Virus record (IMG/VR): IMGVR_UViG_3300009514_000005
Span: 62,001 to 126,000 of that record
From: a virus
DNA length: 64,000 nucleotides
Direction: 5' to 3' (one strand)
The notes under the pieces are model-generated. The model did not search any database and was not told where the DNA came from. It saw nothing but the letters and a program-made list of their open reading frames with translations. The position numbers were made by a program, and so were the translations under genes. This document shows positions 13,881 through 31,842 of the stretch, piece by piece (within the stretch, counting starts at the first letter, position 1; each line of letters opens with the position of its first letter).

Positions 13881-15851
13881 CTATGAAGTCTCAGCTAAAA
13901 CCCCTGTAACCACTAAAAATCTTTCTTTTATTACTATAGTTACAATCTTATGTTGAATTATTTCCTGATCAGTAATAATAAGATTTCCGTCCTCGTCCAA
14001 CCTATCAAGAGGCGATGTTATTTCCGCATTCACATATCTAATATCTCCAGCGGAATTGGCATCTCTAACAGCGTTACATAGATCGTAAAGATATAAACTA
14101 TTTCCAGCGGATCTTCTGACAAGAAGCCCAAATGGATCAACAGTTCCTGTTAGAGCATTATTTGTTCTGGAAAGCACATCTTCTTCTTTGGCTGTTGAAT
14201 TTATTCCAATCTCTATTCTGATATTTGGCTCAACCAAATTAGGAGTTCCGTCCACGGTATTAACGGTAACTACAGCATCAGCTATCTTTTGCAACGTGTC
14301 CTCAGCATCTTGAAGAGTTTGGCTAGTTGGAGAAATATATTTATTATTTTGATCAACCGATAGAATCACAACCTGAACATTATTTGCTTTACTTGTATCA
14401 GACATTGTTTGGGATAAGTAATCATGGAGCCCAGAAACACTTGTATCGATTAAAAGATTTCCGGCGTCAGCATTTTCCTTAATAGCCACATTATCTTCGC
14501 AATCAACAAAATCGGTTCCGCTCACGCCAAGAGAAGGAATCCCTGATACAATTAGTCCACCTTGTCCAATCACTTGGAGCCCTGGGATACCGGAAACCCC
14601 AAGAAACCCTATCCCGGTTACATTTCCGCCATTGCATCCCAAAAACTGAGTCCCGCTAACACCTAGGTTGCTTTGACCGTCTACAGCCAGTCCACCCTGT
14701 CCCCCAACGTTTAGGCTTCCGGTACCGGAAACGCCAAGGAAATTGACTCCGCTTACTCCTGTGGCCAAAATTCCACTAACAGCATTATCTACAAGCTCCT
14801 GACCTCCACTGATACTATTAAAGAAAGCCTGAATTGTGAGATCATCATCAATACCTCTCATGATTTGAGCGTCTGCTAAGGTTACACCATTTTGAAGTTC
14901 AGCTATTGTGTCATAATCTTCTTTAACCACTGCGGCATTTTGTGTTCTAAAAAAGGCAGAAGCAAATGTTTTCACCCTTCTAATATCTTCTGGATCTGAC
15001 CCGACAACGGACGCCTCGTTCGTGACTGTCATCCCTATGGTTTGACCATTCACAACGAGCTGATCTACTGGTCCCGAGATTTGATTAGACCCAATGGCCC
15101 CCTGCAATCCTCTTCCGTACCTATAACTCAAGACAATGTTTGAATTTTCAGGAGGAATATTTCCGGTGATTCCATCACCAAATCTAAGCTTTGGTGGATC
15201 ATCAACAAAAATAACTTCATAAATATCTAAAAATTCGAAAGTAAGAATATCCTCCCTGGACCAAAGGTTTCCATCAACCGTGACGGATAAATCATCAGAG
15301 TATATAAATCTTTCTTCAGGAATTCCGATAATACTAAATTGTTGATTTTTGCTTTGATCAGAAACCCACGAAAGCTGTCTACTTTCTCCTTCTTTAAGAG
15401 TAACGCTTAGGGTCGTTTCTCCAACATTAAGCTTAGCTGGAACATCTCCGCGATACTCATAAATGATGTCTCCAGATCCTTGGAATTGAAATCCAACGGG
15501 AATCTCAATCGGAAATACATACGGAGCGTCATCAAAAGTTAAAACAGCAGAAAGAGAAGCTGGCCTGGCTGGCTCAATTGGCTTACCAAGCATTCTCGCA
15601 AGCTTTACGATGCTTTTATTTAGCCTGGCAGTATCTAAAAAATATTCACTAGCCCTTCTGTTAACCAAAAAAGCAAGAGCTTGCATTCCAAAAGCAAGCT
15701 GATCCATCATGGCATTACCAAGCTCTGTGTTTAAAAGATTATTGAAATCATCAGGATAGTTGGTTTGAAAAAAATCATTAGCCTCACTGCGAAATGTGGC
15801 AAAATCTTCAGCTATAAATTTGACTCTATTGAGTTCGTCTACGAGTGCCAT
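13881..15851 (-). CDS. Baseplate wedge protein J-like (gp6/gpJ family)
   Basis: The 656-residue product has the features of baseplate J-like proteins: an N-terminal helical region (DFATFRSEANDFFQTNYPDD, then LLNTELGNAMMDQLAFGMQAL and a segment with YFLDTARL), the middle ARMLGKPIEPARPASLSAVL, the strand LRFGDGITGNIPP, and VVKEDYDTIAELQ. These proteins form the ring of the baseplate that changes shape on infection. It directly follows the gp25-like gene, as in P2 (W then J). A Gly-rich VSG repeat block is inserted near residues 355-450, which is not usual for the family. Confidence 0.85.
   Translation of the reverse strand: MALVDELNRVKFIAEDFATFRSEANDFFQTNYPDDFNNLLNTELGNAMMDQLAFGMQALAFLVNRRASEYFLDTARLNKSIVKLARMLGKPIEPARPASLSAVLTFDDAPYVFPIEIPVGFQFQGSGDIIYEYRGDVPAKLNVGETTLSVTLKEGESRQLSWVSDQSKNQQFSIIGIPEERFIYSDDLSVTVDGNLWSREDILTFEFLDIYEVIFVDDPPKLRFGDGITGNIPPENSNIVLSYRYGRGLQGAIGSNQISGPVDQLVVNGQTIGMTVTNEASVVGSDPEDIRRVKTFASAFFRTQNAAVVKEDYDTIAELQNGVTLADAQIMRGIDDDLTIQAFFNSISGGQELVDNAVSGILATGVSGVNFLGVSGTGSLNVGGQGGLAVDGQSNLGVSGTQFLGCNGGNVTGIGFLGVSGIPGLQVIGQGGLIVSGIPSLGVSGTDFVDCEDNVAIKENADAGNLLIDTSVSGLHDYLSQTMSDTSKANNVQVVILSVDQNNKYISPTSQTLQDAEDTLQKIADAVVTVNTVDGTPNLVEPNIRIEIGINSTAKEEDVLSRTNNALTGTVDPFGLLVRRSAGNSLYLYDLCNAVRDANSAGDIRYVNAEITSPLDRLDEDGNLIITDQEIIQHKIVTIVIKERFLVVTGVLAETS
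14500..14790 (-). repeat. Two tandem Gly/Val/Ser-rich repeats inside gpJ-like protein
   Basis: The insert holds two copies of a unit of about 38 residues. Each contains FLGVSG, then LxVxGQGGLxV, then LGVSGTxF and a cysteine (copies end FLGCNGG and FVDCEDN). The codons differ between copies, so the similarity is mainly at protein level. The pattern suggests an elongated beta-roll or surface-exposed domain added to the baseplate protein. Confidence 0.65.
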
Positions 15852-18639: not shown

Positions 18640-20022
18640 TTACTGAATGTTAACCCCACTTGTTTGAGGAATTTTAGTATTTGTTTTTGCAGAAGAAGTC
18701 GCAGATGTTGGCCTTGCTTTCTCAAATTGTTGAGATAGTGCCGAAATTAACCCACCAGTTCTAGCGCATTTCAAAGCAGTCTCAACTCCACCAGAAGAAA
18801 CATTGTGCTCAACCTCATATAAGTCATAGGCTCCAGTCAAAGCATCAATATCAGCAATGGCTACATTGACCATTTGCCCCGGAAGAAGATCAACTACACC
18901 AATTGACTGAAGACTGTACTGGAAAGTTTTATCCATAAATGAGTGAACAAGTCCTTTAGCTTTTTCAACTTCAAACTTACCGGGGACAGAAAGACCTGCT
19001 CCGCCAACATCGTCTGGTTTTACGTTTCCGGCAACATCGGCCTTTGTTCCTCTCTGTGTCGCATTTTGACCACCAGCAACAGATCCATCCTGGCTAGTAG
19101 TAGTATTTGTAGACTCAGACATGGTGCCAGCACCAGCTTTAACGTCATTAGTCTTTTTCTCTTCTCTGTTATTGGATGATATTTTTTTACCCCATGCTGC
19201 TCCTGGAAGAGTCAGATTAGTAACCTCAGTTGAAAGTCCAAGAAGTGGGTAAACTCTTTTGTTTGGATTAATTTGTCGATACATAACAAAAGTTGGAATA
19301 CGCTGAATCGTTCTTGTTCCATGTCTACTTCTTATTTTGAAAATTTGCGCGGAATCAGCATTGCCTGGATTTTTTGCCCCAGCATAAAAACCAGTACAAT
19401 TAGCAGACTCCAACACCTCTAAAGCTGACTCCCAATCTGACTTGGATTGATCGTAATTCATTTGAACATCTAAATCTTCAATAGCTTTACGGTCTTCAAT
19501 TTTTATTTCTACCTCGTCACCAATCAGCTCTTGAAGTATTTTTGATTTTGTTTGATCTTTAAATGTCCTTTGTTTTTGCGCCTTAGTACTGCTAAACATC
19601 ATGCCAACACCCTTCATAGTGATAGAGACGCCATCTGTTGAAATATCTATATCTGGTGGCATTAATATTGCTTTAAAAAAAGAAGATGATCTACCACCAT
19701 AATGAAGTCTTACGGCCATTCTGTTAACCGCAATTCCGAGTTTTGAAATGCCTATCGATCCAAGAGGAATTGGAATGGCCCCGGTCCCACTATCTGACTT
19801 GGAAAATCCAATGCCTATTTTCCCAGACTTTAAAAGCTTAATGGCTTGCTCTAAGGGAGGTGCTAGATGAACATCAACGGTAAATATTTTAAGAAGAGGA
19901 ATGTTTACTCTGACTGAATCAATATAACTAGATGCTGGGCCGATAACGGATTGAATACTTTGCATCACGCCGTTTTCCTCTAAAAGAAGCTCTACGTCTC
20001 CACCAAGAAGATCAATGGCCAT
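18640..20022 (-). CDS. Baseplate hub protein (gp27/gpD-like)
   Basis: The 460-residue product shows the late control protein D / hub features: a segment with ISTDGVSITMKGVGMMF, then RTFKDQTKSKILQELIGDEVEIKIED, and a C-terminal beta region with DLLPGQMVNVAIADIDALTG and YDLYEVEHNVSSGG. A low-complexity Ser/Thr/Gly linker (near residues 300-350) lies in the middle. Hub trimers link the tail tube with the spike. It sits between tape measure and spike, the canonical order, and shares one base with the tape measure gene. Confidence 0.8.
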   Translation of the reverse strand: MAIDLLGGDVELLLEENGVMQSIQSVIGPASSYIDSVRVNIPLLKIFTVDVHLAPPLEQAIKLLKSGKIGIGFSKSDSGTGAIPIPLGSIGISKLGIAVNRMAVRLHYGGRSSSFFKAILMPPDIDISTDGVSITMKGVGMMFSSTKAQKQRTFKDQTKSKILQELIGDEVEIKIEDRKAIEDLDVQMNYDQSKSDWESALEVLESANCTGFYAGAKNPGNADSAQIFKIRSRHGTRTIQRIPTFVMYRQINPNKRVYPLLGLSTEVTNLTLPGAAWGKKISSNNREEKKTNDVKAGAGTMSESTNTTTSQDGSVAGGQNATQRGTKADVAGNVKPDDVGGAGLSVPGKFEVEKAKGLVHSFMDKTFQYSLQSIGVVDLLPGQMVNVAIADIDALTGAYDLYEVEHNVSSGGVETALKCARTGGLISALSQQFEKARPTSATSSAKTNTKIPQTSGVNIQ

Positions 20023-22079
20023 CAGGTAATCTCCTTACCGCTTCTTTCCGCCTGAGCCCTGCTCCTTTTATCCATGGTTATTCCCATTCTGTTTGCATCA
20101 GCACCAATAACAACTTTTTGATTTCCTCCGCCTTTGGATAGATTTTGATTCAGTTGTTGTAGCTGATCTAATATCAACATATTGCTCATCGCTGTTTGTT
20201 CTGTTGCGGCAAGTTGTTTTTTTGTTACATCTTTCTCCGGCACTTTTTTTAGCCTAGCTTGCTTTTCTTTTTCTGTTCCTATTGGAATAACCGGGGCTAC
20301 TTTTCCCTTTTCCCCTCCGGCTATGATGCCCCCAGGAGTTTTAGTTTGTTGCTGGAGCTTGGGAGGAACTCCTGCTTTTGGCTTCATTTTTTCAGCACTT
20401 TTGTTTAATTTGTCAGCAGCGGAATCAAACATAGATCCAAAACCCTTGACCTTATCGCCAAGCCAATCAGCAGCACCTCCAACGGCGTTTCCAACCAATC
20501 CACCAATATTTTTCCATCCTTCAAAAATCATTTTAAAAACAGTTAATATTCCGTTTCCAAAAGTCATAAAAGCATTTGTAACAAAATCTATTGATGTTTT
20601 TATGCCAGTTCCAACGGATCCGAATACAGATGTAATTGAATCTATTGCCGACTTAAGCATTGGTGATTGAGAAACAAAGGCAGATACCCAATTATTAAGA
20701 GCGCCGAAGAACCTACCGATTGAACCCGCAAGGTCCATAATAGAGGTGCCGAGCCACTTAAATCCGCCAGTTACAGTAGACCATACTCCAGTGACAAATC
20801 CTGCGATAGCGGTGCCAAATACAGCTATGGCGGCAATCGCTGTTCCTATTCCTCCGCTAAAAGTCAAAAGTCTTTGGCCCAACATTCTTATCGGATTCCA
20901 TAAAAACTCAAAGGCATTTACAAACGGTGTCTTTATGGCGTTAATTATGCTCAAAAGCCTGGGCCCAATACCTTTAAAAACATTCAAAAATCTTCCACCG
21001 AGAGATTTGGTGACTTTCATAATTCCAGATCCAAGATTTTTAAACATTCCAGAAAGAGCACTCACTCCAGGTATCTTTAGAAGGCCGGTTCCCAAAGCTG
21101 CTAAGCCAGCGGCCAACCACCCCATTATTGTCCCAAGTATCCCCTTTTTTTCCTCTTCTTCTCCGCTTATTTCAAAAATCTTCTTCAACAAAGAAATAAC
21201 ATTTGTTTTTTTGCCGCCTTTGCCAAGAGATATATTCATATCTTTTTGTTTTTCAAATGATTCTTCATTCATCTTTAAAAGATTATTAAGAGAATTAATC
21301 ATTTTATCTCTTTGGTTTTTCTCTATTTTTCCCATCAGCATTTTAGGTAAATCCTTAATAGGCTTAAGGACGCTCCCAACGACTCCAAGGGCCGCTGTTA
21401 ACTGAGGAGGAATAATTTTAGAAAAATCGATACCAACCGTAGACAAGAAGTTTTTAGCAGAATTTCCAATATCATTAAAATAATTTCTCACTCCCTCGAA
21501 AACCTTGCTTGCTTTTTTCCAGCCAGCCATAATTGCGTTATTGCTTTTTACAAAAGTGGAAGCGTTCGAGATAATCCTATTTCTAGAATCTTCGGTAAGT
21601 TTTCCGTTTTCATCAAAAGATACATTTAGATCCCTCATGTTGGCGATCAAGTGTTCCATCAATTGAGGCTTGATTACTTTTCCCAATGCTCCAAAAGTGC
21701 CAGCAACATCGTCAGCCCTTTTTCCTCCTTCTTGAATAACCTTGTAAAGCTTTTGAAAAGATTTTGTTCCTATATTTTTTGGGGCCGTGGTCTTTTTAGC
21801 CTGACCAGTTGTAGATTTTTCATCACTGACTCCTGCCCATTGCTTGGGCCCACTAGGACCCTTCATTCCACCTAATCCCGCTGAAGCACCAGGTTTGCCA
21901 ATCTTTTCCCCAACGCCGCCAAGGCCCTTTGAAGCCTTTTTTCCTGCGCCTCCTATGTCTTTTAATTTTGAAGAAATTCCACCAAGATGTTTATGGACAT
22001 TAACAAGCTTCTTCTCGAGTCCCTTGTCGGTGGCCTTAAAACTAAAGCCTAATCCCAAGAATTTTTTATCAGCAGCCAT
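20022..22079 (-). CDS. Tape measure protein
   Basis: The 685-residue product has the usual tape-measure features: Gly/Lys-rich N-terminus (KKASKGLGGVGEKIGKPG), long helical stretches, and hydrophobic segments (for example GTIMGWLAAGLAALGTGLL and GIGTAIAAIAVFGTAIAGFV) that may act in DNA entry. Using the familiar rule of about 1.5 angstrom per residue, the tail would be near 100 nm. It follows the chaperone frameshift pair and precedes the hub gene. Confidence 0.85.
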   Translation of the reverse strand: MAADKKFLGLGFSFKATDKGLEKKLVNVHKHLGGISSKLKDIGGAGKKASKGLGGVGEKIGKPGASAGLGGMKGPSGPKQWAGVSDEKSTTGQAKKTTAPKNIGTKSFQKLYKVIQEGGKRADDVAGTFGALGKVIKPQLMEHLIANMRDLNVSFDENGKLTEDSRNRIISNASTFVKSNNAIMAGWKKASKVFEGVRNYFNDIGNSAKNFLSTVGIDFSKIIPPQLTAALGVVGSVLKPIKDLPKMLMGKIEKNQRDKMINSLNNLLKMNEESFEKQKDMNISLGKGGKKTNVISLLKKIFEISGEEEEKKGILGTIMGWLAAGLAALGTGLLKIPGVSALSGMFKNLGSGIMKVTKSLGGRFLNVFKGIGPRLLSIINAIKTPFVNAFEFLWNPIRMLGQRLLTFSGGIGTAIAAIAVFGTAIAGFVTGVWSTVTGGFKWLGTSIMDLAGSIGRFFGALNNWVSAFVSQSPMLKSAIDSITSVFGSVGTGIKTSIDFVTNAFMTFGNGILTVFKMIFEGWKNIGGLVGNAVGGAADWLGDKVKGFGSMFDSAADKLNKSAEKMKPKAGVPPKLQQQTKTPGGIIAGGEKGKVAPVIPIGTEKEKQARLKKVPEKDVTKKQLAATEQTAMSNMLILDQLQQLNQNLSKGGGNQKVVIGADANRMGITMDKRSRAQAERSGKEIT

Positions 22080-22115: not shown

Positions 22116-22277
22116 CTATCGCTTTCGGTCAGCCTCTACCTTCCTCTTTGCTTCTAACTCCTCTTTCCATTCAACTAGCCTTTTTCTCCTTGAAACCGGC
22201 ATACTCATAAACGAGTCATATTGAAGCCGCACTGTTTCCAATAAAAAAGCAAATTCTTCTTCCAGTGTGTCAATCAT
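22116..22277 (-). CDS. Tail assembly chaperone extension (53-residue -1 frame)
   Basis: This short gene (MIDTLEEEFAF... ending VEADRKR) starts at ATG 22277, overlapping the stop of the gp26-like gene by four bases (ATGA). It is helical and highly charged. Its frame is -1 relative to the upstream gene, and a slippery T_TTT_TTC lies just upstream in the overlap region, so it can be made as a 297-residue fusion (241 + 3 + 53 residues). This matches P2 E/E' and lambda G/GT, both just before the tape measure gene. It may also be translated by itself. Confidence 0.8.
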   Translation of the reverse strand: MIDTLEEEFAFLLETVRLQYDSFMSMPVSRRKRLVEWKEELEAKRKVEADRKR

Positions 22278-23008
22278 TCCGAGGGGAAAAAAAATTCCGA
22301 GCCCGACAACTCCATATCACTTGTGTATTCATTATGACACTTAGGGCAAGTTGCTTTATATTCGTCGTCAAAATCTCCTTCTTCTTTTTCGATAGCATTT
22401 CTAAATCTAGACCTTTCTTTCATGGGGAGAATTTTGATGCTTTCTATACCTGCTGGTTTTCCGTCAATGCTATCAACCCTTGCATAAAGACCAACGGTTG
22501 CTTTGTTTTGGTCTGTTGCAATTTTTTCAATCTTTTCCTCAACCGCGCCATCAGCTATTTTCCAACGAATTTTTCTTCCATCAGCTAACTCAAATTCCCT
22601 AAATAATTCATCGGCATTTGGCGGTCTTTCTATTTTTATTTGAGCTAAATCATAATCAACTTTATCCTTATGAGCGCATTCGGAATCAGGACAGGTTGTC
22701 ACAAAAGTAAAAATATTACCGACAGATAAAGATCTAAGCTGTAGAAGACATCCCCATCTATCAGTTACGACTAATCTTTTGGCGAAAGCATTAATCTGTG
22801 CTCTATCTTCAATATCTCCAAATTTAGTAATACAGTTAGCAATAATCTGAGTTAGTTTTGTCGCTGTTAACATTTTCTGGGAGGCCAAAACATCTTCTTC
22901 GATGCCTGTCATTTCTCGGAAAATAATATTTTTAATAACGCCAACTTCATCAACCTTTACGCCGGTAGGTAATTCATAGGATCCTAACGGTGATTTTGCG
23001 CCTTCCAT
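22274..23008 (-). CDS. gp26-like tail chaperone/hub protein with zinc-binding Cys
   Basis: The 244-residue product resembles the T4 gp26-like baseplate hub family: LPTGVKVDEVGVIKNIIFREMTG, then LTQIIANCITKFGDIED, then two Cys pairs (CPDSEC and CPKCH) that could bind zinc, and LQLRSLSVGNIFTF. In P2-type phages the gene in this position acts as a tail assembly chaperone. It is directly upstream of the 53-residue gene and carries the frameshift site. The C-terminal Phe run (EFFFPSE) is the codon run that makes the slippery site. Confidence 0.75.
   Translation of the reverse strand: MEGAKSPLGSYELPTGVKVDEVGVIKNIIFREMTGIEEDVLASQKMLTATKLTQIIANCITKFGDIEDRAQINAFAKRLVVTDRWGCLLQLRSLSVGNIFTFVTTCPDSECAHKDKVDYDLAQIKIERPPNADELFREFELADGRKIRWKIADGAVEEKIEKIATDQNKATVGLYARVDSIDGKPAGIESIKILPMKERSRFRNAIEKEEGDFDDEYKATCPKCHNEYTSDMELSGSEFFFPSE
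22286..22292 (-). other. Slippery site for -1 ribosomal frameshift (T_TTT_TTC)
   Basis: On the minus strand, the gp26-like gene reads GAA TTT TTT TTC CCC TCG GAA TGA. The heptamer T_TTT_TTC is in the correct frame for tandem slippage. A -1 shift gives TTC then CCC CTC GGA ATG ATT, running straight into the 53-residue gene. The site is nine bases before the stop. The P2 E' slippery site is of the same T6 type. No downstream pseudoknot was modelled. Confidence 0.75.
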
Positions 23009-24298: not shown

Positions 24299-24880
24299 TT
24301 AAATACCTGTGTTAAACTCTTCAAAATAAAATGGCCTCAATGTAAGTTCCGCTAAGCTAATATCTTTTCCCATTGGATCAAAATCACTTCCACCTTTATA
24401 TCTCGTAGGAACCGTCTCAATCAACATCCAAGCCCTTGCAGGGATTCTTGATATAAGATCAGTCAATACACCAAAGCCTAAATCAAGGCCACCCTGATCC
24501 CCAGGAAGGCCCAATACACCAATATCTGAATAATGAATGATGAGAAGGTTTTTTCTCTGCTCAGTTTCACCACGAATATATTTACTGATCCAATCATAAA
24601 AATCCGAATTAAAAAATCTTGTTCCCTGAGTTAATTCAATCGGCGTAACTTCAGCCCCTTGGAGAACGTAACGAGGATACTCGAAAGTCCCTTCTTTAAT
24701 AGATTTTTCATTAACCGTAATCTCTGGAGCTGTACAAGTCCTAAACCCATAGACAGGAAGAAAAACTAAAGGGAAAGAAAAGGAGATATCAAATACCTGA
24801 AAATGAGCATTTGTTAAAAAATCAGAGATCCTATTTCTTCTGTCTAGAGGATTAAGGGAATCTAAAAATTTTAGGCCCAC
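24299..24880 (-). CDS. Tail tube-like protein, second paralogue
   Basis: The 193-residue product starts at GTG with AGGGG upstream. It resembles the tail tube family in layout: a helical N-terminus, strands with VNEKSIKEGTFEYPRYVLQG, and a core that contains RKNLLIIHYSDIGV near residue 110. The final part (DISLAELTLRPFYFEEF) parallels the end of the neighbouring gp19-like protein, which has AEITLEEIDIEIEYF. The two neighbouring genes appear to be related. This one may be a tube-terminal or tube-like initiator protein. Confidence 0.65.
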   Translation of the reverse strand: MGLKFLDSLNPLDRRNRISDFLTNAHFQVFDISFSFPLVFLPVYGFRTCTAPEITVNEKSIKEGTFEYPRYVLQGAEVTPIELTQGTRFFNSDFYDWISKYIRGETEQRKNLLIIHYSDIGVLGLPGDQGGLDLGFGVLTDLISRIPARAWMLIETVPTRYKGGSDFDPMGKDISLAELTLRPFYFEEFNTGI

Positions 24881-24895
24881 AACTAATCCCCTATT

Positions 24896-25426
24896 TTACG
24901 AAATAGTTAACGCATCAACCTCGTTTCCATTTTGAAATAAACGGAAATATTCGATCTCAATATCAATCTCTTCAAGAGTTATTTCAGCGGTTGTAGAATC
25001 CCAATCCGTTCCCGTCTTAACTCGAGTAGGAAGACAGTTAAAACAATGGAATTCTCTTGATGCAATAGCATTTCTATAATCAATCAAACCACTCACATCA
25101 TCTCTATGAAAATGACGAATAATTAAATTGGTTCGATAAGGCTGATTTTCAGAAGTTGCTCTACACCAAGCCGCAAAAGTTGAATCATTTTTAACAACGC
25201 CCTTGGACAAAGTAAGAGGAGTAAAAGTGGTTTCACCTGGATACTTTCTTCGGTAAGTCCAAATTCCTTCTTGATACTCAATTGATCCAATCGTCTGCTC
25301 TGGAGCCACAACAGTATTAAATCCAGCAGCGGGTGTTGCCAGGTTGAGATATCCCTCAGTATCAATTACATGAAATCGATTCTGAGAAAATGGATCGGTA
25401 GATTGACTTCTAGCGGTGCCTGCCAT
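24896..25426 (-). CDS. Tail tube protein (gp19-like)
   Basis: The 176-residue product has the phage tail tube pattern: SQNRFHVIDTEGYLNLATPA, EGIWTYRRKYPGETTFTPLTL and SKGVVKNDSTFAAWCRA, ending with AEITLEEIDIEIEYF. The T4 gp19 type subunit stacks into the inner tube around which the sheath contracts. It directly follows the sheath gene, the classic order. Two close cysteines (HCFNCL) occur near residue 135. Confidence 0.8.
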   Translation of the reverse strand: MAGTARSQSTDPFSQNRFHVIDTEGYLNLATPAAGFNTVVAPEQTIGSIEYQEGIWTYRRKYPGETTFTPLTLSKGVVKNDSTFAAWCRATSENQPYRTNLIIRHFHRDDVSGLIDYRNAIASREFHCFNCLPTRVKTGTDWDSTTAEITLEEIDIEIEYFRLFQNGNEVDALTIS

Positions 25427-29474: not shown

Positions 29475-29664
29475 TCAACAATCTCCCATCTTTATAACGA
29501 CTAGAAAATTCACGCATCAACTTTACTAATGTTTCACGAACATATAAATTATTGCTTTTAACCGTACCTATAAAATCCCTAGCAACATCTTCTTCTAGGA
29601 AAAATTTAAAAGGTCTCTTTTTAACATCCATGTTTTCTTCTACAAAAAAATCAATCTTGTCCAT
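29455..29664 (-). CDS. Ribbon-helix-helix-like protein (69 residues)
   Basis: From ATG 29664, which has AAGGAG six bases upstream, the product is 69 residues with a strand followed by two helices (KRPFKFFLEEDVARDFIGTV and VRETLVKLMREFSSRY), consistent with a ribbon-helix-helix fold. It overlaps the rmlA-like gene by 14 bases at its start and the next gene by 20 bases at its end. It may be a local repressor or an accessory of the sugar cassette. The family call is less certain than that of the other RHH gene. Confidence 0.55.
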   Translation of the reverse strand: MDKIDFFVEENMDVKKRPFKFFLEEDVARDFIGTVKSNNLYVRETLVKLMREFSSRYKDGRLLNEPERT

Positions 29665-30385
29665 CTCTCGCTCCTTGAGAAGCAACGAAGTCAATCCAAC
29701 TATTCTTTTCTCCTAAATCTGCCCATTCACCCTTTATTTGAACTACCCTTAATCTATCTTTCTTTAAATACATTTTTAAAACATCTGTTATTTCAAGTTC
29801 TCCACGCTCCGAAGGAGATAACTCTTCCACCCTTGCAAAAACATCCCCAGGAAAATAATAAAGACCAGTTAGTATTCTATCATGCTGCGGACTACTGGGC
29901 TTCTCTATGATCTCCACAGGACCATCATCATCATAGATTACCTGCCCAAAGGATTTAGCCTTTTCTTTATCCCCAAGAGCATATTCGAAAGCGTAAGCGT
30001 AATGAGGATGAGGACAATCCAAATCAATCGCTAATTGTTTTTCTGAAAAATAATTATCCCCAAGTATCAAAAGAACTCCAATCGGAGCCCTGTCGTTTAT
30101 TGAAACTCTTTTGAAAATATCAGCAATACCTTTTGGTTCTGGCTGGAATGCATAGCTCACCTTGTCAAACCCATACTTGTCACCATCCTGGATATAATCA
30201 ACCACCTGGCTCGCATGATTAGACCCAGTTACAATAGTCACGTTCTTGATATCATGCCTTCTTAAAAACTCGAGAGGATGATCCACCATGAGGCCATCAC
30301 CAGTAGGAATGAGATGTTTGTTTAAAAATTTGGTTACCGGAGCCATTCTTGAACCAGATCCACCACAAGCAACTATGGTCAACAT
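29651..30385 (-). CDS. rmlA: Glucose-1-phosphate thymidylyltransferase-like (RmlA)
   Basis: The 244-residue product matches the RmlA family: the nucleotide-binding loop GGSGSRMAPVT (family usual GGxGTRLxPxT), the KHLIP motif, LLILGDNYFSE, then LTGLYYFPGDVF, and ERGELEITDVLKMYL and WADLGEKNSW near the end. The enzyme joins glucose-1-phosphate and dTTP to make dTDP-glucose. It ends one base-frame after rmlC (adjacent, overlapping starts) and is transcribed with it. ATG at 30385 is better spaced from GGAG than the first ATG at 30391. Substrate could be another sugar phosphate. Confidence 0.8.
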   Translation of the reverse strand: MLTIVACGGSGSRMAPVTKFLNKHLIPTGDGLMVDHPLEFLRRHDIKNVTIVTGSNHASQVVDYIQDGDKYGFDKVSYAFQPEPKGIADIFKRVSINDRAPIGVLLILGDNYFSEKQLAIDLDCPHPHYAYAFEYALGDKEKAKSFGQVIYDDDGPVEIIEKPSSPQHDRILTGLYYFPGDVFARVEELSPSERGELEITDVLKMYLKKDRLRVVQIKGEWADLGEKNSWIDFVASQGARDGQD

Positions 30386-30387
30386 AA

Positions 30388-30933
30388 TCATTCTCCTTGA
30401 TATTCAAATGGCGACTCAAAATCCTTGAGCTTCGGAAGGTTTAGATCTTTCATGGAAACACCGATCCTATCTAGATCACCCCATGGCAATCCAAGACTGG
30501 CGTCAGAAGGATCAATGCCTCCATCGGATTCTTTGTCCCACTCCTCGGTACACATATAAAGAAACCTTGTACTGTCTTTTTTAGACCAAAAACCATGAGC
30601 AAATCCAGGAGGAATGTAAACAGATATTCCATCCGGCTTTAACTCGAACGTATCGACTTGGCCGTAAGTAGGGGATCCCTTTCTGAGATCCATGGCAACA
30701 TCTGTAACGTAACCAGACAAAACCCTGATTAATTTTCCTTGGGGATTATGTTTTTGAAAATGAAGACCACGCACCATATCTTTTTCGGATACAGACATAT
30801 TCACTTGCTTAAAGCTGGGAAGAAAATCCATGTCAGACCTCTTATATAGCTCAGTAAAAGATCCACGAATATCCTCAAAAATATAGTTTTTCATTAAATA
30901 ACAACCACTCTTGGTCTTACTGAGATACCCCAT
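30388..30933 (-). CDS. rmlC: dTDP-4-dehydrorhamnose 3,5-epimerase-like (RmlC)
   Basis: The 181-residue product has RmlC features: DIRGSFTELYKRSDM, FKQVNMSVSEKDMVRGLHFQ (with the catalytic His in RGLH), RVLSGYVTDVAMDLRKGSPT, IPPGFAHGFW, and GIDPSDASLGLPWG. It is a cupin enzyme that epimerises the 3 and 5 positions of dTDP-4-keto-6-deoxyglucose. The start at 30933 has GGAG seven bases upstream and overlaps rmlD only slightly. It is between rmlD and rmlA in one operon. Confidence 0.85.
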   Translation of the reverse strand: MGYLSKTKSGCYLMKNYIFEDIRGSFTELYKRSDMDFLPSFKQVNMSVSEKDMVRGLHFQKHNPQGKLIRVLSGYVTDVAMDLRKGSPTYGQVDTFELKPDGISVYIPPGFAHGFWSKKDSTRFLYMCTEEWDKESDGGIDPSDASLGLPWGDLDRIGVSMKDLNLPKLKDFESPFEYQGE

Positions 30934-31810
30934 TATACAGCTCCATATTAAATTTATTTCTAATGTAAAACTTAACATCGTCTTGCCAACTGCCCATGCT
31001 TCCCAGCTTTAACAATTCTTTTATTTTTAATGGACTCATAGAAGTGTTTTTCGGACGACGAGCTTTGCCGAACTTAAGATCGTCAACCCCATGGACCAAC
31101 CATTGATACTCATAAGAGATTCCGTTTACAATGAAATCTGCAACTTCACATCTCGTTGCGAAATCATCGTGTGTTAAGTGATAAGTCCCGTTTGGAATAA
31201 AACTAAGCCCCTTAGCCATCATCCTACAAACCATCTCAATAATTACGAAGGCCAGCCAATCAGTCGAACAAGGGGATCCTGTTTGAGAATGAGTCACTTC
31301 GATAACCTTTTTATCGATGACTGATTGTGTTACCCAGTCTATAAAATTAAATCTAGTTTTTCCAAATAACCACTGAACCCTTAGAATGATCGAAGGAGTT
31401 CCGAGTAATCCCATCTCGCCATTTAATTTAGATTTTCCGTATTCCTGAATAGGACTAGGTTTATCCTCTTCGATATAAGGATCTTCTTTTTCACCATCAA
31501 AAACATAATCAGTACTAATATGGATTAATTTGGCCCCATATGCTTTACAAGTTTGGCCTAAAAATCTAACGCCATCTCCATTGATTAAATTAGCTACTTC
31601 GCTTTGACTCTCACACTTGTCTACGTCAGTGAATGCCGCAGCATTTATGACAATAGATGGCTTAACTTTTTCAAAGAATTTTCTAACACCAATGTTATTC
31701 GTAAGGTCTAAAGACTTATGAGTAGTAAGGATATGGCTTACCTGTCTGATTGAAAGCTGAGCCCTAAGGCTAGAACCCAACATTCCTTCGGCACCCAAAA
31801 CAACGATCAT
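30917..31810 (-). CDS. rmlD: dTDP-4-dehydrorhamnose reductase-like (RmlD)
   Basis: The 297-residue product is a short-chain dehydrogenase of the RmlD type: NAD(P)-binding GAEGMLGSSL, INAAAFTDVDKCE, the segment HISTDYVFDG, the catalytic YGKSK, and LRVQWLFGKTRFNF. It reduces dTDP-4-keto-L-rhamnose to dTDP-L-rhamnose. ATG 31810 has GGAG six bases upstream; TTG 31816 is less likely. It is the first gene of the rmlDCA set. No rmlB is present within the window. Confidence 0.85.
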   Translation of the reverse strand: MIVVLGAEGMLGSSLRAQLSIRQVSHILTTHKSLDLTNNIGVRKFFEKVKPSIVINAAAFTDVDKCESQSEVANLINGDGVRFLGQTCKAYGAKLIHISTDYVFDGEKEDPYIEEDKPSPIQEYGKSKLNGEMGLLGTPSIILRVQWLFGKTRFNFIDWVTQSVIDKKVIEVTHSQTGSPCSTDWLAFVIIEMVCRMMAKGLSFIPNGTYHLTHDDFATRCEVADFIVNGISYEYQWLVHGVDDLKFGKARRPKNTSMSPLKIKELLKLGSMGSWQDDVKFYIRNKFNMELYNGVSQ

Positions 31811-31842
31811 CGTCAACTCCGTTCAACAATTCAACCTTATTA

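Follow-up and report, generated by a model that had tools for sequence, protein, structure and literature searches.

How a phage makes both the short and the long form of its tail assembly chaperone is the question raised by a locus in the window, a 64,000-nt part of a 134.6 kb virus record; coordinates below are those of the window unless another locus is named. There, a gp26-like gene (22274–23008, minus strand) ends in an overlap with a second, much shorter reading frame, and the tape measure gene follows. In this study, we concluded that the locus very probably encodes the tail assembly chaperone of a contractile-tailed phage of the T4 type, which would make both forms by a −1 frameshift. 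Family membership, gene order, the slippery site and an open and conserved −1 frame were observed here.

The zero-frame product of 244 aa, the putative short form (TAC-N), matched PF12322 (E = 7.5e-9, 36 bits against a cut-off of 24.5 bits) and phrog_150 (E = 5.4e-13). Its AlphaFold model (pLDDT 91.6) matched predicted structures of T4-like proteins annotated as "baseplate hub assembly protein", at best with E = 2.1e-21 and TMq 0.86, and among the solved structures of the PDB neither a sequence match nor a fold match to the 244-aa form was found. The first-pass annotation had described the protein as zinc-type, which appears reasonable given its CxxxxC and CxxC pairs, common to the loci L002, L086, L012 and L091. 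It had also treated the gp26-like partner as a departure from the known chaperone architecture, and this view did not hold. T4 gp26 and gp51 belong to the same family as the window protein, matching both PF12322 (E = 8.8e-64 and 3.9e-52, respectively) and phrog_150. Vladimirov, Gautam and Davidson (2022, Virology 566:9–15) reportedly recognised this family as the tail assembly chaperone of T4-like phages, with gp26 as TAC-N and gp51 as TAC-NC, so a gp26-like partner is expected rather than new. T4 gp51 is gp26-like with about 50 further C-terminal residues, and genes 26 and 51 lie on opposite strands. Since both T4 proteins are of the gp26 family and gp51 is the longer, T4 makes the short and long forms from separate genes, whereas the window phage would make them from one locus by −1 frameshifting. 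A single PF12322 gene is present in the whole record of the window virus, and likewise one per record in L002, L012 and L086. Vladimirov et al. are also said to have found frameshifting conserved in several T4-like groups, with genes 26 and 51 serving in T4. PMC10885494 describes as a finding of Vladimirov et al. (2022) that some T4-like phages follow a two-gene strategy, and PMC12846349 cites −1 frameshift signals of the poly-T type in the TAC-N genes of T4-like phages.

Genes for a gp53-like wedge protein, two gp19-type tube proteins and a sheath lie 5′ of the chaperone gene, from which we take the region to be the tail module of a phage with a contractile tail. The two tube genes are adjacent (24299–25426, minus strand; both PF06841), and they are followed by other small genes, the chaperone gene and the tape measure gene, which places the chaperone between tube and tape measure. 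The tape measure gene (20022–22079, minus strand; 685 aa; phrog_58 "tail length tape measure protein", E = 4e-12) begins 36 nt downstream of the −1 extension. This order of tube, chaperone and tape measure genes is kept in L002 and, by gene layout, also in L012 and L115. The sheath of L002 is 62% identical to that of the window, and its gene order is the same. L002 also has an adjacent pair of tube genes resembling that of the window by sequence. Inside the tail module of this closest relative, a subtilase (Peptidase_S8, E = 3.1e-50) is encoded at L002 6492–7604, and it was not seen at the corresponding place in the window. Nucleotide-sugar genes adjoin the tail module at window 29651–31816 (minus strand), encoding an NTP_transferase, a dTDP-4-dehydrorhamnose 3,5-epimerase and an RmlD-type reductase, which suggests a dTDP-rhamnose-type pathway in the window virus. 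A large baseplate-region protein (13881–15851, minus strand) carries an inserted glycine-rich repeat (GVSGTGSLNVGGQGGL...) and had no Pfam match. In L003 (1–7263), similar ORFs carrying ELRDYxxCxxAVKQxGxAL repeats form a long array beside a phage tail module.

The gp26-like gene ends GAA TTT TTT TTC CCC TCG GAA TGA on the minus strand, exactly as the first-pass annotation had read it, and the slippery heptamer T_TTT_TTC lies in the gp26 frame at 22292–22286, inside an 8-T run (22294–22287). A −1 shift at this point enters the overlapping frame CCC CTC GGA ATG ATT GAC and continues to a stop at 22116; this frame is open from 22316 and ends 52 codons beyond the gp26 stop, so that the window has the slippery heptamer and the following open −1 frame that a programmed −1 frameshift calls for. 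The extension (22116–22286, minus strand) consists of PLG, the 53 aa of the shorter ORF (22277–22116, minus strand) and the stop, and would yield a long form (TAC-NC) of 241 + 56 = 297 aa, the length originally given, with FFF-PLGMIDTLEEEF as the predicted peptide across the fusion junction. An ATG overlapping the gp26 stop (ATGA; ATG at 22275–22277, minus strand) offers a possible, unsupported independent start for the 53-aa ORF. The overlap is present in the window as first described, but a start at that point is not conserved in close relatives, for which reason it is probably incidental or secondary. The heptamer alone is just mildly unusual: among the 58 genes of the window, 8 carry XXXYYYZ in frame within their final 25 codons, and in 3 of these 8 the −1 frame also stays open for at least 40 codons past the stop. 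It is also cheap in this AT-rich gene (P = 0.59 given FFF and codon usage). The case for frameshifting is convincing because of conservation across relatives, and not because of the window alone.

Close relatives were not found in viral or genome contigs when the window gp26 alone was used as the query, and L002 and L086 were found through sheath-based searches. In total, 13 −1 loci were compared: the window, L002, L086, L012 and L091, together with L101, L102, L107, L117, L118, L119, L123 and L126 from bacterial genomes. In each of these 13 gp26-family genes, whose homologous C-terminal domain lies in the −1 frame, T_TTT_TTN occurs in frame close to the end of the gene. Of the first 59 distinct junctions, 8 were counted as having the heptamer; at that stage 8 −1 loci were known, and every one of them carries it. 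The junctions themselves differ in their codons, reading GAT TTT TTC TTC CAA TAG in L002, GGT TTT TTC TTC CCA in both L086 and L091, and GAT TTT TTG TTC CCG in L012. The −1 extension of the window is related to the −1 frames of L002 (51% identity over 39 aa, E = 5e-15) and L086 (45% identity over 51 aa, E = 3e-13). Profile matches link it to the −1 frame domains of L012 and L091 and to the C-terminal domain in other viruses with a gp26-family gene (hhalign probability 88–97%). The extra C-terminal domain expected of a long form is thus found as a homologous −1 frame domain in relatives; its match to the T4 gp51 C-terminus was weak (E = 0.0055 in a 28-sequence search). The slippery site and the second frame, whose conservation in homologues had been proposed as a check, are therefore both kept in every −1 locus, which supports the original proposal that the two frames ahead of the tape measure gene are joined by a programmed −1 frameshift.

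The codons at the slippery site provide further evidence. Rare codons are needed for T_TTT_TTN in several GC-rich relatives, and the joint probability of the slippery string, given the amino acids and codon usage, was 0.0062 in L086, 0.0366 in L012, 0.0195 in L101, 0.0001 in L102 and 0.0265 in L107. The product over eight −1 loci is 10^-12.5 if they are independent, and the true strength of this codon evidence is lower because the loci are partly related. Judged from these sequences, selection on the slippery nucleotide string is a conclusion that seems hard to avoid.

The same comparisons bear on the other ways in which the two frames could be explained. In translational coupling, ribosomes would restart at the ATGA after reaching TGA and produce a separate 53-aa C-terminal protein without any fusion. 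The overlap in the window would permit this, and L107 and L118 also have ATGA; however, L002 reads ATA where the window has ATG, over the 60 nt next to the stop the −1 frames of L101 and L102 offer neither ATG nor GTG nor TTG, and the only starts in L086 and L091 fall inside the domain. As the stretch from slip site to domain holds no usable start in these five loci, restart cannot explain the C-terminal part in several of the −1 relatives. Moreover, by sequence, a Shine-Dalgarno is absent before the window ATG, T4 gp51 and the bacterial in-frame relatives carry the extension as a covalent part of the protein, and restart would give the slippery heptamer no reason to be conserved with rare codons. 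We therefore consider restart unlikely.

Slippage could also occur during transcription, with the polymerase adding or dropping a U on the T8 run, so that mixed mRNAs would yield the fusion by normal translation. Runs of T8–T9 permit polymerase slippage, and the window has T8 while L107 and L118 have T9, so that this route is conceivable for the window taken by itself, but L002, L086, L091, L012, L101 and L102 have just T6, which is too short for efficient polymerase slippage. The T_TTT_TTN phase is kept in all loci, including those with T6, and T7 is mostly kept in the group with +1/−2 extensions described below; both observations speak against this explanation, which we regard as very unlikely. 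A coincidence, in which the heptamer has nothing to do with the adjacent ORF and ribosomes do not shift frame, is close to negligible in our judgement: an in-frame heptamer near the gene end together with an open −1 frame does occur in 3 of the 58 window genes, yet chance would not account for a −1 peptide that is conserved as protein in divergent viruses and always accompanied by the heptamer. A programmed ribosomal −1 frameshift is the reading that we retain.

Signals that often accompany such sites were sought around the junction. The 85 nt downstream of the window site folded no better than shuffles (z = 0.06), and the same was true downstream in L002, L086 and L012; L091 alone had a downstream hairpin (z = −2.33), a single-locus signal. 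A pseudoknot, a point raised by the first-pass annotation, was not found in the window by a simple and crude H-type search, and an upstream Shine-Dalgarno-like duplex in the window was matched by 44% of shuffles. Neither a stimulatory RNA structure nor an internal Shine-Dalgarno, which are common and non-obligatory, was thus detected in the window. L002 has pseudoknot-like stems and a Shine-Dalgarno, and its pseudoknot-like hit was unmatched in 60 shuffles, as a signal of this single locus that relatives do not share; such signals from one locus carry little weight. No conserved stimulator was found across the examined −1 loci, no Rfam family overlapped the slip site, and promoter-like sites around the junction were no more frequent than in shuffles.

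Considering these results, we favour a model in which the majority of ribosomes would end at TGA and produce the 244-aa gp26-like TAC-N. With tRNA-Phe occupying both the P and the A site, a minority would slip back one base on U_UUU_UUC and read past TGA, producing the 297-aa gp51-like TAC-NC. We infer that slippage takes place, as we do its efficiency, the short:long ratio and what the two forms bind. If they act as gpG and gpGT do in lambda, TAC-N would cover the tape measure protein, tail tube subunits would be brought in by the C-terminal domain of the less abundant TAC-NC, and both TAC-N and TAC-NC would depart before the tail is completed. The lambda system resembles the proposed one: a short and a long chaperone arise there through a −1 frameshift close to where the first gene ends, beside the tape measure gene, and its gpG/gpGT ratio is about 30:1 (PMC5009743). 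P2 E/E′ is alike in that a contractile-tailed phage uses a programmed frameshift in its tail operon (Christie et al., 2002, as cited in PMC12859696), with an efficiency 2–3 times that of lambda (PMC5009743). Tail chaperone frameshifts are −1, −2 or +1 depending on the phage (PMC5009743); phage Mu and other phages with +1/−2 tail chaperones follow the same two-product logic, whereas the window uses −1.

Other modes exist within the gp26 family itself. Gp26 ends TTT TTT TGG CCN in 29 of the 59 junctions, covering many of the sampled T4-like viruses, and the C-terminal domain then follows in the +1/−2 frame, often without a nearby start codon. The −1 and +1/−2 C-terminal domains are homologous by profile (hhalign probability 88–97%). 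The +1/−2 extension occurs in several T4-like groups (L066, L042, L057, L016, L087, L088, L082, L084, L092 and others); +1 fits better in L082 and L083, and −2 fits better in L084. In the tree, the window, L002, L086, L012, L101 and L102 form one −1 clade (support 98/93), and L091 and L107 fall outside this main clade. Translation modes cluster on the tree far better than shuffled labels, and deep placements are unsure because the branches are long. Bacterial PF12322 genes L104–L106, L108–L112, L120–L122, L124 and L125 have an in-frame fused TAC-C-like domain. Region L114 is an extracellular contractile injection system with sheath, gp19 tube, Pvc16_N, AAA and eCIS_core; in this one in-frame-fusion region examined, no tape-measure-like gene was found right after the chaperone. 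In the bacterial loci L107 (region L116), L117, L118 and L119, the −1 domain follows T_TTT_TTN in a T8–T9 run. As region L116 contains Pvc16_N and AAA genes, a −1 frameshifted chaperone may be present in a contractile injection system (L107/L116).

We lean slightly towards the view that the gp26/PF12322 family has switched its route to the long form several times, with a short:long ratio that is tunable and tied to tape-measure length. The routes would be −1 at T_TTT_TTN, +1/−2 often at TTT TTT TGG CCN, two genes as in T4, and, in the extracellular contractile injection systems of bacteria, fusion in frame; at least one relative of these systems, L107, also has a −1 site. If this is true, injection systems without a long tape measure could manage with the long form alone.

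Frameshifting was already known for the T4-type chaperone family, and the window phage thus appears to be a well-supported added example. With it, the T4-type tail chaperones gain a lineage that uses −1 frameshifting and whose codons give evidence of selection on the slippery site, whereas T4, the best studied of them, relies on two genes. The example also points to a recurrent annotation gap, in which the C-terminal frame is omitted or labelled as a separate hypothetical protein in named phages: LIS04 has no annotation of this frame, SP-15 and immuto have a partial one, and in BRock it is a separate hypothetical protein. Furthermore, the occurrence of −1 and +1/−2 frameshifting, fusion and two genes within one family offers a natural comparison for what sets the short:long ratio.
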